A stretch of DNA of 48,127 nt from a virus: IMG/VR virus record IMGVR_UViG_3300020183_000131, positions 1-48,127 of that record; one strand, written 5' to 3'. Under the pieces are notes generated by a model, which made no database searches, was not told the DNA's origin, and saw only the letters and a program-made list of their open reading frames with translations. The position numbers and the translations under genes were made by a program. The first letter of the stretch is position 1. Every line of letters begins with the position of its first letter. This document shows, one piece after another, positions 2,926-47,596 of the stretch.

Positions 2926-3453
2926 ATGGCAAAACTTCCTTTTATCGTTGAGCCCAAATCAAAGCCCGTCTTAACAAAAATCGGGAATGATGAAATTGGT
3001 ATTTTCGAAATCGAAAGACGAGGATACTTGACCGTCTCGGAGAAGACTTTTGTTGATAGCTTTACTCAGTCTAGTGGGATCTTGAAGGATATTGTAAAAA
3101 TTTCGAATCAAGTATCCTTGTTAATGAAAATGGGTCGCGACGAGGCCTATAATCTTGTTGTTAGAGTTTTAAGTGGAAACACTGAGACCAAGAACGAGAA
3201 AGCTGTAGCAGAAAGATATGAAGTCGAAATTGCTGAGATGACATCCAATATGGCTGAGATGCAATCAAAGAGGGCACTTGCTGTAGCAACCGTATTATTA
3301 CAGAGTCGAGTTGATTCGGAATGGGAATTTCAAGATACTTTAGGTTTAGAACCTCAGATAGTAGAGGAGCTTTGTTCGTTGTACGATTTGGAAGAGTCTA
3401 AGATCAAACCGGAGCAACCCGAGACCCTGGCACAAGAAATACTGGGAAAGTAG
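2926..3453 (+). CDS. tail assembly chaperone, short (gpG-like) form
   Basis: This 175-residue, largely helical, charged protein lies just upstream of the tail-tube and tape-measure genes. It ends in ...EILGK with the codons CTG GGA AAG TAG, so the last sense codons form the heptamer G GGA AAG, identical to the phage lambda G/GT slippery sequence. In lambda-type phages the short form and a -1 frameshifted long form together coat the tape measure during tail assembly. I infer the same here from the slippery site, the gene position and the open -1 frame. Confidence 0.8.
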   Translation: MAKLPFIVEPKSKPVLTKIGNDEIGIFEIERRGYLTVSEKTFVDSFTQSSGILKDIVKISNQVSLLMKMGRDEAYNLVVRVLSGNTETKNEKAVAERYEVEIAEMTSNMAEMQSKRALAVATVLLQSRVDSEWEFQDTLGLEPQIVEELCSLYDLEESKIKPEQPETLAQEILGK

Positions 3454-4082
3454 AATCAGGTGAATACGGAGAGCCAATTAATTTCTCTGAAATCTATTGG
3501 TTTTTGAAATTCACCTTCCCAGGCGATACGGAGTTTACATTTGAGAGATACGGGGAATTACCATATATCTATGTCTTAGAGGCATATGAAAATGGATTGA
3601 GAATAAATAGAAAAAATCTTCATTACTATGAAGCGCCACACGCTCTTCAGACATCTATACTTGCCAATATTAATAGAGATCCTAAAAAGAATCGCAAACC
3701 CTTTTCTTTTGAGGATTTCTGTATGTATTTATCTTTAGAGGATAGAGATATTCCAAGTTCTGAATTCGGATCAGCGGCAATGGTGTTGATCGAAAAAAGA
3801 ATCTTTCCATCATGGGCTTTATTTGCATACAAAGATCTTAAGAGTGCAGCCTCTGGGCTGCCGCCAGATGTCCTTGCTTATTTGTCAGATGATATTATTA
3901 TTTTGGCTCCACAGATTTCCGAAGGTTCTGTTAAAGGTATGATGATAGCAATGCAAAAAGCATCTGGAAAATTAAGATATCTGGAATCACCCTGTCATAA
4001 ACAAGTAATCATTAAAGTACCAAAGTTTGACGGTAAATTTTATTGTTGTGAAAATGTAGTGATTGAATTAATTACTGGTTAG
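2926..4082 (+). CDS. tail assembly chaperone, frameshifted (gpGT-like) fusion
   Basis: This is the -1 frameshift product of the chaperone gene: 175 residues of the short form, then about 210 residues from the downstream frame (VESGEYGEPINFSEIYWFLK onwards, entered at 3450). The downstream part has no good independent start: only a TTG at 3504 with no ribosome site. This supports translation only as a fusion of about 385 residues. Its 3' end overlaps, tail to tail, the antisense HNH gene by 11 bases. The tube gene lies between the chaperones and the tape measure, unlike the usual tube-chaperone-tape order. Confidence 0.8.
3444..3450 (+). promoter_or_regulatory. -1 programmed frameshift site GGGAAAG
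   Basis: The heptamer G GGA AAG is in the correct phase (X XXY YYZ) and is followed at once by the zero-frame stop TAG (3451-3453). The -1 frame entered at GTA 3450 is open for 210 codons to 4082. Lambda uses the same heptamer between G and T. No obvious stimulatory stem-loop was needed to make this call. Confidence 0.85.
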
Positions 4083-4449
4083 AATTGTATTGAAGAATTT
4101 TTCCTGTATTAAGCCATTCATCAATCCTTTCTTCATTAATCAAGGAATAAAAATTTTGCAGTCTATACCAAGACCTCCAATCCAAGCTACCTTTTGAATG
4201 GTTGCATGATTTGCATGCGGGAACACAATTACTTGTTCGATCTTTACCTCCTCGGCTTTTAGGTCTAACGTGATCAACAGTTAAACTTTTCTCATCAATT
4301 GGAGGGCTGTTGCAATAAGCGCATCTGTTGTTCCATGCCTCTTTAATACTATTACGCCACAATCGTTTGGCTTCTGTTGTTGTCATTGCCTCAAGATTAA
4401 AAAGGTATTCGAAAGCCTTCTCTCGAAGGGGAATAATCTGATTAATCAT
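4072..4449 (-). CDS. HNH endonuclease, likely free-standing homing type
   Basis: This 125-residue protein carries a clear HNH nuclease core: CAYC, then LTVDHVRPKSRGG, then NCVPACKSCNHSKG. This gives the two zinc-binding CxxC pairs and the catalytic His. It is the only minus-strand gene inside the tail block and sits between the frameshifted chaperone and the next tail gene, the typical pattern of an invading homing endonuclease. An inverted repeat at 4464-4521 lies just outside its 5' end. Its likely role is cleavage of related genomes lacking the insertion; a packaging role is less likely given the position. Confidence 0.85.
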   Translation of the reverse strand: MINQIIPLREKAFEYLFNLEAMTTTEAKRLWRNSIKEAWNNRCAYCNSPPIDEKSLTVDHVRPKSRGGKDRTSNCVPACKSCNHSKGSLDWRSWYRLQNFYSLINEERIDEWLNTGKILQYNSNQ

Positions 4450-4573: not shown

Positions 4574-5011
4574 ATGGCTCAAAATTTTCCAACCTCGCCA
4601 TTGGTGATTTATAACACCTTGGGCGCAAATACAACTTTTGTAAATAGCCTTGGCGATTATACTTTTACTGGTGGTTCTACATCAAAAGCATTTGCGATTG
4701 TCACACCTGGCAGACCATTGCCAAACTTAGAGAATGTTACCGGTGTTGAATGTATTATTCATGATATTGGTGACGTAAGAAGGAAAAATTATTTAACCGA
4801 TAATAGCAGTCTTTTATCGACCTGGAAGGTGTTTTTAATTGCGTGGGATCCAGCATATGGTACAAACATTAATACAAGTGCCAATATTATTCTTTCGACT
4901 TTTGCGGGATCTAAGGCAATAGAAACAGTGGCAACCTCTTCTGGCTTGACTGCGCGAGTTCAAACGCTTGTTTTGATTCCAGAAGAAGGTGCAATTAATC
5001 CAAACCCATAA
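4574..5011 (+). CDS. tail protein, possible tail terminator
   Basis: This 145-residue beta-rich protein (FAIVTPGRPLPNLENVTGVECIIHDIGDV, WKVFLIAWDP) lies between the chaperones and the tail tube. Size and position would suit a tail terminator or completion protein, which docks on the head-proximal end of the tube. There is no diagnostic motif, so this is an inference from position. The start ATG follows the structured gap at 4464-4521. Confidence 0.45.
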   Translation: MAQNFPTSPLVIYNTLGANTTFVNSLGDYTFTGGSTSKAFAIVTPGRPLPNLENVTGVECIIHDIGDVRRKNYLTDNSSLLSTWKVFLIAWDPAYGTNINTSANIILSTFAGSKAIETVATSSGLTARVQTLVLIPEEGAINPNP

Positions 5012-5107: not shown

Positions 5108-5761
5108 ATGGCAAATTATTCAGCCGCATTTGGCTACGACGTTTACCTGATGCCGCTGGCTTCCAGTAGCGTTGATATTGATTTTACTGGCGTTACTAGC
5201 GCCACTGGTACAACTCAGCCTGCAGCCTTTATTAAGACTGACACCACTACACTTGGCAACGGTTTAAACATCGTTCCTGCCACTGCCTCAGTTGCGTACA
5301 ATGGCACGACTGGTGTTTTCACGGTTGCTGGTTCTGCGTTCAGCATGAATGGCACTGATAAGCCGGTCCGTCTGTACGGTTTAACGAACGCTGCGCTAGA
5401 GACCGATACCAGCTCCGAAGACATCATCACTTATGATGATGAAACCAAGGGTTATGCCACTTCAATTGCTACCTCCAAGACTTGGAGCATGACCCTCGAG
5501 GGTGTTGCCGACTTCCAGGATTCTGGCTATCAGATTCTCCGTCTGACTGAGCAAAATACCGTTGCCAACTCCCTGCGCGTCAAGATCGCCCGTATCGGCC
5601 CCACGGGTACTGACGAAGCCGTTTATGGCTACGGCACTCTTGAGGGTTATTCAGAGTCGATTGAGGCGGGCTCAATTGTTAGCTGGAGCGCCACACTTTC
5701 CGGCTATGGGCCTTACAAGCTTGATATTGATGCCAATCCGGCTCCGGCTCCTACTCCGTAA
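5108..5761 (+). CDS. major tail tube protein
   Basis: This 217-residue protein begins MANYSAAFGYDVYL and has the beta-rich, Thr/Ser/Gly-rich make-up of tail-tube proteins. It contains ATSKTWSMTLEGVADF, LRVKIARIGPTGTDEAVYGYG and GSIVSWSATLSGYGPYK, matching the tube family's 'ves.s.tgs.ds..ws.tl.g.G' end. Codon use is more GC-rich and biased than its neighbours, as also seen in the capsid gene, which fits high expression. It is isolated between a structured leader and a strong terminator, directly before the tape measure. Confidence 0.8.
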   Translation: MANYSAAFGYDVYLMPLASSSVDIDFTGVTSATGTTQPAAFIKTDTTTLGNGLNIVPATASVAYNGTTGVFTVAGSAFSMNGTDKPVRLYGLTNAALETDTSSEDIITYDDETKGYATSIATSKTWSMTLEGVADFQDSGYQILRLTEQNTVANSLRVKIARIGPTGTDEAVYGYGTLEGYSESIEAGSIVSWSATLSGYGPYKLDIDANPAPAPTP

Positions 5762-5809: not shown

Positions 5810-5840
5810 GTTGGCAGACTAGCTTAGCATTTTGACCATA

Positions 5841-8800
5841 ATGGCAAACGAGATAATTATTTATGTTTCTTCGAAGGCTGATGTAAAGGGCCTCTTGGGC
5901 GCAGAGATGGCGGCAGATAAGCTGGTAAAAAGTCTTAGTCAATACCCCGATGTCGCAGATGAGATCAATAAGACTCCAATGAGGGTTAAGATTGAAGCAA
6001 CTAAAGGCGGGAATGTAAGAATTGCAGAGATTACGGAACAGATTAACGATTTAAATGACGCAGATACTAGACGTTTAAAAATAATTTCCAAAACTGCTAG
6101 TGTAGAAAAAGATTCACTTATTAGCAAAAGACAACTTCTTTCGGTCCTAACACAACAGAAGAATAGTGTTAAAGCTGGGACTGAAGCATTTAGAGAACTA
6201 GATGGGGCTCTAAAGCGTGTCAAGCTGGAAGTTCTTGAAGCGCAGGGCGTGCAAAACGGTAGTATTGCTCAAATAGAAGCCATTAATTCACAGTACAGAC
6301 AACAGCAACGTGAATTGAATAATACCGCAGAGACATATAACAATTTACAGGACAAAATACGGGAGAATGAACAAGCAATTAGGACCCTGCAAGGTGTTCA
6401 GAAAGGTAGTAGAACGGATCTAGTAGCTACTATACGTTTACTGGAGCAGCAACGTGATGCAATTAATCCAGCTACCGACAGAGGAAGATTTGATGATTTA
6501 TCAAAAGAAATAGACGGTCTAAAGGGCGAACTTGCGGGTTTAGATGGTCCATTAAAAAACTTTAATAAAATAGTTGATGGCGTTGCTCGATTGAGAGTTG
6601 TTTTCGATTCACTAAATGGTGCGATAAGGATAATTAACGGAACTATCTCGATTTTTGTTAATAGATTAAAGCAAATAGAGGCATTTCAATTAGCATTGCA
6701 AAATGTTGGATTTGCGGCCTCTAGGGCAAATGTGGCATTACAAAAAAGCTCTGATATAGCATTGAAACTTGGCGCACCACTTCAAAGTGTTGAACAGTCT
6801 TATAGAAGGATGATTCCTTCATTGGTATCACTTGGAATCGAATCAAACAAGAGTGATGCATTTATTGAGTCGTTGACAGCAAGAACGCAAATTCTAGGCT
6901 TAAACTCTGAACAGACTGGGCGATATGTTGAAGCATTTGCTCAGGTGTTGGCAAAAGGCAAACTTTCGGGAGAGGAATTAAATCAGCAGATCTCTGAACT
7001 TGACGGTAAGCTTCGATCTGATTTAGCTCAATCGCTTGGTATTAGCACCACTAAATTCGTTGAATTGGTTGAAGCAGGACAGATAGGAGCAAATACATTT
7101 GTAGACGCTTTCATTAAATCAGCAAATGGAGCCGATGTACTTGCTGCTAATGTAGAAAATGGAACTGCTACAATTCAACAGTTACAAAATATTCTTGGTA
7201 CTATCAATACTAAAAACATAGAAGTTCTTTCTTTGCAATTTGAGTCATTATTTAAAGCAGTTTTACAAACACAAGTAGCTTTCGCAAAATTGGTCAGCGT
7301 TTTAATTAACAGTCCTGTTTTCATATTGATTGCAGGAATCGTTAGAGATTTAGTAGAAGGATTTCTTTCATACCAAAGAGCGACTCTGGGATTAGTTACT
7401 TCTCTAATTAATCTTCTTCGTCCTTTAAATGATGTTTTATTCAAATTGGAAGAGCTCACCGGAATCGCCTCTGGAGTAGCTAAGGCAGTTGGTGTATTAT
7501 TTGGGTTACTACTCACCTCTTCCGCTTTATTTTTGTTCGCCAAAGGTTTAGGAGCACTTAAAGGGGCCTTTGCGGCTCTTGGAGGAGGGATCATAATTAA
7601 AGCAATTACCAGTCTTCAAATTTTTAGTCAAGTTGTCACCGCAATTAATTTAAACGGTCTAATTGCTGGATTGAGATTATTAGGCGCAGCCTTTTTAAAT
7701 TTTGCAATCTTAAAAATTGGCAATCTCTTCTTGGGAATTATCAAGGGGGGTGGTTCTTTCTTGGGTATCATCTTTAAAATTGTTGCGGCTTTGGGATTAT
7801 TGAAAACTGCGCTAATAGTCGTTGGAATTGCAACAGGAATACAGTTAATCAGGTCACTTGTTGCAGGAAGAGAGGGATTTCGAAGAGCGACTGAGGCAAC
7901 AGACGTAGCGACCAAAGCATTAGAAAACTTTAATAAAACTTATAACACATCAAATTTAAAACCACCAACACTTCTAGGTAAATCCACAAAGTCCTTTGAA
8001 GGATTTTTTAAAGCCTTATCTAATCAAGCTGGCTTAAAAAGCTATAATGAATTTATAAGGGGACTACAAAAGGCTGACCCCATTTTCCGTGCCTTTCAAA
8101 AGGAAATAAATAAATCAGGTGGAGAATTGAAGACTTTTAATGATCTTCAAAAGATAAATAGTCAGGATATTGTAAAAAACCAGGCAGCGCAGGATGGCTT
8201 ATTAACCTCGTCCAAGGCGAGACTTTCAGTGATTGAAGCGCAGATAGCATTGATGGAAAAAGAAAATCCAGGTATGACACAACAAATAAACAATTTAAAA
8301 AAAATGGCGGAAACGACGAAGGCAGAAATAAATCTTAGACAGGCTAATATTAAAGCCTTGGACGAGGAGATCGAAAGAAGAATTCTTAATGGTGAAAAGA
8401 TAGGCAGCAATGAGCAAAGAATACAGGCACTTGATGCTGCAATCTCCAAGATGGTAAGACAGCAAAAAGATTTAGATGTAAGCATTCAGGCTAAAACCTA
8501 TAAAGAATTAGCAAATAATATTATTACTGCTGAGCAGGCGCAGGCTAAAAATGCGGTCTCTACAATTATTAGTAATAAATCCTTGATTCAAGCTTACAGA
8601 ATACAACTACAGACACTAGAGGAAAGAAGAGTTACAAACGGTAAGTTGAATGCAGAAGAACAGTTGAAAGTTGATGAATTGAATTCAAAGATCCTACAAG
8701 CTACCGCTGAGGAAGCGCAGGCCTACGGACAGCTTAAACAAGCCATTACAGATGCATTCACAAAAGGCATACAAGATGCCCAACGGCTTGCGGATGTTGC

Positions 8801-10082
8801 TATAACTGCTGCTGGCAACATTAAAAGTGCTTTTGATTCTATTAGTCAAACTGCTGTCAGTGGAATACAGGCAGGACTTAGTGTTATATCCGCAATATCA
8901 TCAGCAATTCAAGCTGATGCCGATAGAGCACTTCAGGCAAGTATTGCTGATCTAGAAGCAGTTGGACTGCAGGGAATTGATTTTGAAATAGCAAAAGCAA
9001 AACTTCAAGCAGAAGCTGATGCCAAAAAGAAAGCCGCTCTTGAGACTGAGCTTCGATTACGTTCGCAAATGTCTAATATTGAATTTGAAATTGAAAGCAT
9101 CAGGATTGAGGTTGCCAAAAGAGTCGCGATTACAGAGGCGAGAATAGCCCAGCAGAGATTAGCGGCTGAAGCTGCGATTGCTAAGGCTAGAGGACAAGAT
9201 GATTTAGCTCAAGCATTAACGAACGCAGCTCAATTGCAAAACCAAGTTATCAGGGGCATCCAGATTGAGGCTGATCTAAATCAAAAAATTCTCTCATTTA
9301 AGAGGGACCAGGAAAGAGTTGCTATCGCTACCGCTGCTGCTGATGCGGGCATCCAGGGATTTGCAAATCTTGATCTTGGATCCTCTATAGGTCAACTTCA
9401 GCAATTTGCCGGACAGGCTAGATCTGCAGTTAATGAATTTGCTAATTTAACGGATGGTACCTTTGAACTTGGTCGAAATATTGATAGCACTGCGGTTCAG
9501 AAAGGGCAAGAGGAGGCCGACAAGATCAAAGAGAGTATCGACGCCGCCGCTGCGGCGGCAACCAGTATGAGCGATAATTTTAAGGCGGCGGCGGAATCCA
9601 TGAGTTCAATAACTGATAATTCCTTTACTCTTCTTAGAAACATAGAAGCGATGAATGCTTTTGCTTTTAATGCTCGAGCAACGGGTGGCCCAGTTACTGC
9701 CGGATCGCAATATACAATTAATGATGGCGGCGGGCGAGAGGCATTCTTGAATAAATTTGGTCGCATGAGCATGCTTCCGGCAGGACGCAATCTCCAGTGG
9801 ACCGCTCCTACCTCCGGCTTGGTCATTCCGGCTAATTTGGTCTCTGACTATATGGCTAATGTCAGAGCAAAACAAATCAGTACTCTGAGTACAAGAAATC
9901 AATTCAATAATGGTGTTTCTGGGAATCTTATAACACATGTATCTACAAGTTCAAGTCGCAATTCCTCAAGTGCTAACTCCAGAATTGTTAACAATGTAAC
10001 AATTCAAAGTCAAAATCCAGTTGCGGATGCTTCAATGCTGATGACTCAAATACAGAAGATCAAATCGCGGAGGAGAAGATGA
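5841..10082 (+). CDS. tail tape measure protein
   Basis: This 1413-residue protein sets tail length and is ejected with the DNA. The N-terminal part is coiled coil. A tape-measure N-terminal domain (TIGR02675-like) is seen around residues 310-420 (LGAPLQSVEQSYRRMI, AKGKLSGEELNQQISELDGK). A hydrophobic central segment holds several membrane-like helices at about 485-690 (VGVLFGLLLTSSALFLFAKG), followed by long Ala/Gln-rich coiled coils. It ends with the common RATGGPVTAGSQYTIND tail. I choose the ATG at 5841; a TTG at 5832 is in frame. The end overlaps the next start (ATGATG at 10079). Confidence 0.95.
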   Translation: MANEIIIYVSSKADVKGLLGAEMAADKLVKSLSQYPDVADEINKTPMRVKIEATKGGNVRIAEITEQINDLNDADTRRLKIISKTASVEKDSLISKRQLLSVLTQQKNSVKAGTEAFRELDGALKRVKLEVLEAQGVQNGSIAQIEAINSQYRQQQRELNNTAETYNNLQDKIRENEQAIRTLQGVQKGSRTDLVATIRLLEQQRDAINPATDRGRFDDLSKEIDGLKGELAGLDGPLKNFNKIVDGVARLRVVFDSLNGAIRIINGTISIFVNRLKQIEAFQLALQNVGFAASRANVALQKSSDIALKLGAPLQSVEQSYRRMIPSLVSLGIESNKSDAFIESLTARTQILGLNSEQTGRYVEAFAQVLAKGKLSGEELNQQISELDGKLRSDLAQSLGISTTKFVELVEAGQIGANTFVDAFIKSANGADVLAANVENGTATIQQLQNILGTINTKNIEVLSLQFESLFKAVLQTQVAFAKLVSVLINSPVFILIAGIVRDLVEGFLSYQRATLGLVTSLINLLRPLNDVLFKLEELTGIASGVAKAVGVLFGLLLTSSALFLFAKGLGALKGAFAALGGGIIIKAITSLQIFSQVVTAINLNGLIAGLRLLGAAFLNFAILKIGNLFLGIIKGGGSFLGIIFKIVAALGLLKTALIVVGIATGIQLIRSLVAGREGFRRATEATDVATKALENFNKTYNTSNLKPPTLLGKSTKSFEGFFKALSNQAGLKSYNEFIRGLQKADPIFRAFQKEINKSGGELKTFNDLQKINSQDIVKNQAAQDGLLTSSKARLSVIEAQIALMEKENPGMTQQINNLKKMAETTKAEINLRQANIKALDEEIERRILNGEKIGSNEQRIQALDAAISKMVRQQKDLDVSIQAKTYKELANNIITAEQAQAKNAVSTIISNKSLIQAYRIQLQTLEERRVTNGKLNAEEQLKVDELNSKILQATAEEAQAYGQLKQAITDAFTKGIQDAQRLADVAITAAGNIKSAFDSISQTAVSGIQAGLSVISAISSAIQADADRALQASIADLEAVGLQGIDFEIAKAKLQAEADAKKKAALETELRLRSQMSNIEFEIESIRIEVAKRVAITEARIAQQRLAAEAAIAKARGQDDLAQALTNAAQLQNQVIRGIQIEADLNQKILSFKRDQERVAIATAAADAGIQGFANLDLGSSIGQLQQFAGQARSAVNEFANLTDGTFELGRNIDSTAVQKGQEEADKIKESIDAAAAAATSMSDNFKAAAESMSSITDNSFTLLRNIEAMNAFAFNARATGGPVTAGSQYTINDGGGREAFLNKFGRMSMLPAGRNLQWTAPTSGLVIPANLVSDYMANVRAKQISTLSTRNQFNNGVSGNLITHVSTSSSRNSSSANSRIVNNVTIQSQNPVADASMLMTQIQKIKSRRRR

Positions 10083-46121: not shown

Positions 46122-46128
46122 GTTGTCT

Positions 46129-46202
46129 GGTCCAGTAGCTCAGCGGAATAGAGCAACTGCCTTCTAAGCAGTCGGTCGCAGGTTCGAATCCTGCCTGGAT
46201 CG
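46129..46202 (+). tRNA. tRNA-Arg (anticodon UCU)
   Basis: A complete 74-base cloverleaf: acceptor GGTCCAG/CTGGATC, D stem GCTC/GAGC, anticodon stem ACTGC/GCAGT with loop CTTCTAA (anticodon TCT, reads AGA/AGG), variable CGGTC, T arm GCAGG-TTCGAAT-CCTGC. Discriminator G; CCA is not encoded. Reads codons often favoured by AT-rich phages. Confidence 0.95.
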
Positions 46203-46278
46203 TTTGTAACTTGCCCGAGATATTCATTTTTTTTATAAGCGCAAAAAAGATATATTGACTTAGGCCAAATTTTTAAAC

Positions 46279-47446: not shown

Positions 47447-47521
47447 GGGACTGTTGCTTATTGGTTAAAGCCGTCGCCTTATAAGCGGCAGAACCGGGTT
47501 CAATTCCCGGCAGTCCTACCA
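47447..47521 (+). tRNA. tRNA-Ile (anticodon UAU)
   Basis: Cloverleaf with acceptor GGGACTG/CAGTCCT (first pair G-T), D stem GCTT/AAGC, anticodon stem GTCGC/GCGGC with loop CTTATAA (anticodon TAT), variable AGAA, T arm CCGGG-TTCAATT-CCCGG, discriminator A and an encoded CCA (47519-47521). UAU reads AUA directly; most bacteria instead use a CAU anticodon modified to lysidine. Confidence 0.9.
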
Positions 47522-47522
47522 A

Positions 47523-47596
47523 GGCTGACTAGCCCAATCGGCAGAGGCAAGCGACTTAAAATCGCTCCAGTCTGAGTTCGAATCTCAGGTCAGCTA
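47523..47596 (+). tRNA. tRNA with Leu anticodon UAA, short variable arm
   Basis: Cloverleaf with acceptor GGCTGAC/GTCAGCT (first pair G-T), D stem GCC/GGC, anticodon stem AGCGA/TCGCT with loop CTTAAAA (anticodon TAA, Leu UUA), variable CCAGT, T arm CTGAG-TTCGAAT-CTCAG and discriminator A. It lies one base after tRNA-Ile. The variable arm is only 5 bases, whereas bacterial Leu tRNAs normally have a long one. No CCA encoded and no group I intron. Confidence 0.85.

Follow-up and report, generated by a model that had tools for sequence, protein, structure and literature searches.

The predicted shift site and its reading frames

The analysed DNA, here called the window, is the complete 48,127-nucleotide stretch of the virus record IMGVR_UViG_3300020183_000131. 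Downstream of a tail-completion/neck gene it carries a short open reading frame that is overlapped by a second frame, and the features of this pair and of the genes behind it are collected in Table 1. The short frame ends in ...CTG GGA AAG TAG, with the heptamer G GGA AAG touching the stop codon and lying in the X XXY YYZ phase needed for tandem −1 slippage. This is the arrangement claimed in an earlier note made from the letters of the window, which had recognised the lambda G/GT heptamer in the correct phase before the TAG. The note had also described the −1 frame as open from 3423 to 4082; the openness and the end were correct, but the frame opens at 3402.

Table 1. Features of the predicted frameshift locus and of neighbouring genes in the window
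Feature	Position	Strand	Details
Open reading frame of the putative gpG-like short tail assembly chaperone	2926-3453	+	175 aa; stop TAG 3451-3453
Slippery heptamer G GGA AAG, predicted −1 frameshift site	3444-3450	+	in phase with ORF 2926-3453
−1 open frame	3402-4082	+	open 3402-4079; stop 4080-4082
T-like domain, used after predicted slippage	3450-4079	+	210 aa; phrog_34388, E = 1.4e-42
Predicted gpGT-like fusion coding region	2926-4082	+	385 aa; −1 shift after codon 3448-3450
Predicted RNA hairpin, 7 nt past the heptamer	3458-3516	+	AGGTGAAT (3458-3465) pairs with ATTCACCT (3509-3516), inner helix
HNH endonuclease gene, convergent, overlapping the end of the T frame	4072-4449	-	Pfam PF01844, E = 3e-14; neighbour, outside the frameshift
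Major tail protein	5108-5761	+	Pfam PF06199, 2.8e-05; phrog_38654, 1e-79
Tape measure protein	5832-10082	+	Pfam PF20155, 3.4e-26

Among the 10,892 codons of the plus-strand genes of the window, GGGAAAG occurs in phase a single time, and codon shuffles of the 3'-terminal part of the short frame put an in-phase slippery heptamer into the overlap in 1% of trials. The first ATG, GTG or TTG of the −1 frame is a TTG at position 3504, which is not preceded by a Shine-Dalgarno sequence (duplex energy −0.9 kcal/mol), in agreement with the earlier statement that the downstream frame has no good start. This codon sits within conserved sequence, and starting there would remove conserved residues. The predicted fusion, with ILGK-VESGEYG across its junction, was computed at 175 + 210 = 385 residues, as the earlier note had estimated. 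An identical junction was present in a second, non-identical contig of the same virus (99.4% identity over 8 kb). A sequencing error was therefore rejected as the source of the junction, given the agreement of this independent, approximately 99% identical contig.

Conservation and gene context in related loci

Homologous loci were collected by protein similarity from S-CBS2, S-CRES1-3, PSS2 and IMG/VR contigs, and both proteins were placed by profile with frame and heptamer ignored, giving 90 distinct loci. Homologues of the downstream frame were found in S-CBS2, S-CRES1-3 and PSS2 (33-44% identity) and in 73 IMG/VR contigs, and those of the upstream protein in 46 IMG/VR contigs. The earlier note had pointed to relatives lacking the heptamer, or carrying the downstream frame as a free gene, as findings that would tell against a fusion. 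In the collected loci, the downstream protein was offset by −1 relative to the upstream protein in 90 out of 90 cases, and GGGAAAG, AAAAAAG or GGGAAAA was located in phase within the overlap in 89 of them. The sole locus without a canonical heptamer, L050, reads ACG GAA AAG TAA, i.e., G GAA AAG. The conservation of the downstream frame starts at the heptamer.

At a threshold of under 90% identity, 70 lineages were distinguished, with AAAAAAG in 37, GGGAAAG in 28 and GGGAAAA in five. Codon shuffling of the 3' end predicted 0.64 heptamers per 70 lineages against the 70 observed; these lineages were drawn from heptamer-bearing loci, and the fair comparison is about 99% (89/90) versus about 1% expected. 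The predicted fusions are 375-422 residues long, and the zero frame continues for 0 to 213 nt beyond the site. Mapped onto a T-domain tree, the heptamer changed class about four times, and the zero-frame stop moved so that its placement immediately behind the heptamer was gained or lost at least 12 times. The codon preceding GGA in the 33 lineages that have it was variously CTG, GTG, GAG, TTG, ATG, TCG, GGG or AAG, its third base always being G, a constancy that follows partly from the selection of heptamer-bearing loci. Because a heptamer was always retained despite the class switches and the moving stops, it is the slippery property that selection preserves while the surrounding sequence changes.

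The order of the genes was likewise stable. Wherever a major tail gene was identified (63 lineages), it followed the pair, and in all 37 lineages with an identified tape measure gene that gene also lay downstream of the pair; in lambda, the pair is situated between these two genes. The site, its phase, the lack of a start of its own in the downstream frame, the conservation and the gene context are established. In 68 of the 70 lineages the HNH gene was present at this position and on this strand, and in 63 it overlapped the T stop. Its Cys pairs and Asp-His are retained, and its identity between pairs of lineages correlates with that of T (rho 0.52). The gene seems to be permanently settled at this site, unlike a homing endonuclease that moves around. 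The gene at 4574-5011, between the HNH gene and the major tail gene, comes after HNH in nearly all lineages; its homologue in S-CBS2 is annotated only as an unknown structural protein, and it is possibly the tail terminator. Three tRNA genes (Arg-TCT, Ile-TAT and Leu-TAA, at 46128-46203 and 47447-47596) are located close to the right end of the window.

Sequences flanking the heptamer were analysed for elements that could stimulate slipping. The hairpin predicted in the window folded with a z of −2.2, with 7 of 200 shuffles equally good, and with a z of −4.7 when a 70-nt folding window was used; no support from covariation was obtained for its exact stem. A stimulatory role of this hairpin is plausible from its predicted fold. 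Among the 33 lineages of the GGGAAAR class, the 70 nt beyond the heptamer folded better than control segments (z −2.2 versus −0.2, p about 1e-4), whereas folding in the 37 AAAAAAG lineages did not differ from controls (p 0.24; between classes, p 0.01), all these p values overstating independence since the lineages are related. Just past the heptamer, a recurrent GCCAGG(A/G) could form a stem with TCCTGGC, which spans the conserved Phe-Pro-Gly-Asp codons, at about +7 to +75. This was observed in about a dozen GGGAAAR lineages (L006, L036, L037, L042, L043, L044, L046, L109 and others). For this stem, 88% of cells were paired, compared with at most 58% when it was slid, and its covariation was no better than that of shuffles; the data hint at a long-range stem that stimulates slipping in phages with GGGAAAR sites. 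An upstream Shine-Dalgarno sequence (energy <= −5) was somewhat more frequent in the lineages (0.51-0.64) than in controls (0.28). We do not claim it as a stimulator: it is absent in the window (−1.5), and purine-rich Glu/Gly codons may explain the excess.

Proposed slippage and competing explanations

Our reading, to which we assign a probability of roughly 0.93, is that the overlapping genes of this cyanophage-like virus are joined by −1 slippage at GGGAAAG; the products would be a chaperone pair. We infer both the occurrence and the rate of slippage, as well as the chaperone function. Most ribosomes translating the upstream frame would terminate at the TAG at 3451 and release the short chaperone of 175 residues. 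A minority, holding GGA in the P site and AAG in the A site, would move back by one base to GGG and AAA, continue in the −1 frame with GTA GAA TCA... and finish at 4080 with the 385-residue fusion. The adjoining stop codon and the hairpin 7 nt downstream would probably aid the slippage. If the pair acts as gpG/gpGT does in lambda, the tape measure protein would be coated by the short protein, the rare fusion molecules would recruit the major tail protein through their C-terminal domain, and the ratio of the two products, set by slippage, would control tail assembly.

It could be argued that the downstream frame is instead a separate gene with its own start and that no functional frameshift takes place. 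All of the eight public records checked miss the fusion and present the downstream frame as a separate CDS, usually truncated, or as a hypothetical protein, and some actinophages have separately expressed pairs with no evident frameshift (PMC7302621). That ordinary annotation would overlook the fused protein had been anticipated in the earlier note and proved true in S-CBS2, S-CRES1-3 and PSS2. Yet in 64 of the 70 lineages no ATG, GTG or TTG exists in the T frame from six codons before re-entry to the conserved aromatic-x-Leu-Lys motif, leaving no start between the heptamer and the conserved core, and the first ATG is frequently 40-160 codons in. Together with the unsuitable TTG 3504 of the window and the almost universal in-phase heptamer, this makes a separate gene very improbable; on the sequence evidence the downstream frame lacks an independent start, as in gpG/gpGT-type chaperones. 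A fusion produced by RNA polymerase slipping on an A-run, rather than by ribosomes, is barely credible. Although A-runs of 7-8 nt, in principle long enough, occur at the site in many relatives, the window has only GGGAAAG and no long homopolymer, and the alternation of homologous sites between GGGAAAR and A-runs fits tandem tRNA slippage, not polymerase slippage.

A further alternative accepts the frameshift and assigns the products another task, such as head-tail joining or a different structural role. It could draw on the position of the pair before the major tail gene, adjoining the neck gene, and on the lack of significant homology to known tail chaperones. Scans of the G family with Pfam, PHROG and NCBIfam gave no consistent match beyond scattered chance hits. 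The T-like domain of the window was matched by phrog_34388 over residues 43-207, as was that of all 66 members (best 2e-70); this family represents the downstream domain, not the joined protein, and is listed without a function. Comparison by hhalign with seven lambda-like G and T sequences yielded nothing significant (probability 1.7 and 0.1), and a PDB sequence search with both profiles returned no match. The AF2 models, with pLDDT of 90.7 for G (beta hairpin and helices) and 94.4 for T (helical part and C-terminal beta domain), were compared by Foldseek. The G model had no significant PDB match and only unnamed matches at E 1e-3 or better in the viral library; the T model had one strong match, which is unnamed, and no significant named one. 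Foldseek matches bearing the names tail assembly chaperone or pre-tape-measure frameshift protein had E > 1 and were discounted as evidence. On the other side stand the overlapping short/long −1 architecture in the tail module (about 170 residues plus an extension), the absence of any other such pair between the major tail and tape measure genes, and the weak matches of the T domain to the Pfam family Minor tail protein T (PF06223, Phage_tail_T), which were seen in 13 of 66 members and stayed under the family cutoff (best E 0.0043). A non-chaperone role is thus unlikely. Since lambda gpG/gpGT likewise consists of a short tail-module protein and its less abundant −1 extended form, a chaperone role of the pair in tail assembly is, by this analogy, highly likely.

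This reading would provide a probable function for two unnamed protein families of cyanobacterial siphoviruses and many marine contigs, and it corrects records that consistently list the downstream gene as free-standing and truncated. The approximately 70 lineages, with their switching heptamers and moving stops, offer a natural series on what sets the frameshift rate.

Comparison with lambda and other known systems

Slippage of this kind has been on record since lambda (Levin et al. 1993, cited in PMC5009743); frameshifting between G and T is widespread among long-tailed phages, and experiments in E. coli have shown both G_GGA_AAG and A_AAA_AAG to be prone to shifting (PMC5009743). Of the lambda products, G attaches to the tape measure protein and the T part to the major tail protein (PMC5009743, a review). 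The lambda record has the same GGGAAAG close to the end of G, with the stop five codons after the heptamer, whereas in the window the stop follows directly. The T domain comprises 210 residues in the window and about 144 in lambda. The gene orders also differ: lambda has V-G-T-H (major tail, G, T, tape measure), and the window has G-T, the antisense HNH gene, an unnamed gene, major tail and tape measure, with the pair before the major tail gene. No significant similarity to lambda G or T was detected by sequence, profile or fold. Of the gpG/gpGT pair proposed in the earlier note, the lambda-like mechanism and the approximate position stand, and homology to the lambda proteins went undetected. 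By position and architecture the pair would work like gpG/gpGT.

The closest named counterparts are the homologous short and downstream proteins of S-CBS2 (gp015/gp016), S-CRES1-3 and PSS2 (gp064/gp065), which have the same −1 offset, an in-phase A AAA AAG or G GGA AAG and 25-44% protein identity to the window; none of these records annotates a fusion. The predicted junction in S-CBS2 is ...TTKK-VSSGEAVYDFDR, and in PSS2 the zero frame extends 117 nt beyond the site. A DNA-level search of phage records gave no match. We found no description of a frameshift in S-CBS2-type phages in the literature retrieved, the original S-CBS2 paper, which may mention one, being outside those results. The GGAAAAG of the exceptional relative L050 is the annotated −1 site of phage LLS (phi80-like, with a lambda-family T), a coliphage with lambda-type G/T proteins and gene order, unlike the window.

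Taken jointly, the data would admit a more elaborate interpretation that we regard as doubtful. A chaperone family not recognisably related to lambda G/T would use the same −1 slippage, fixed before the major tail gene and with the convergent HNH gene directly behind it; GGGAAAR lineages would need a long-range hairpin with its 3' arm in the conserved Phe-Pro-Gly-Asp codons, and AAAAAAG lineages would not. If true, the frameshift would have been recruited independently and the strength of the stimulator tuned to the heptamer type. The locus is very probably an unannotated case of a known and widespread mechanism, in a family of its own; that long-tailed phages produce their tail chaperone by frameshifting is a known rule, which the locus confirms without extending it.
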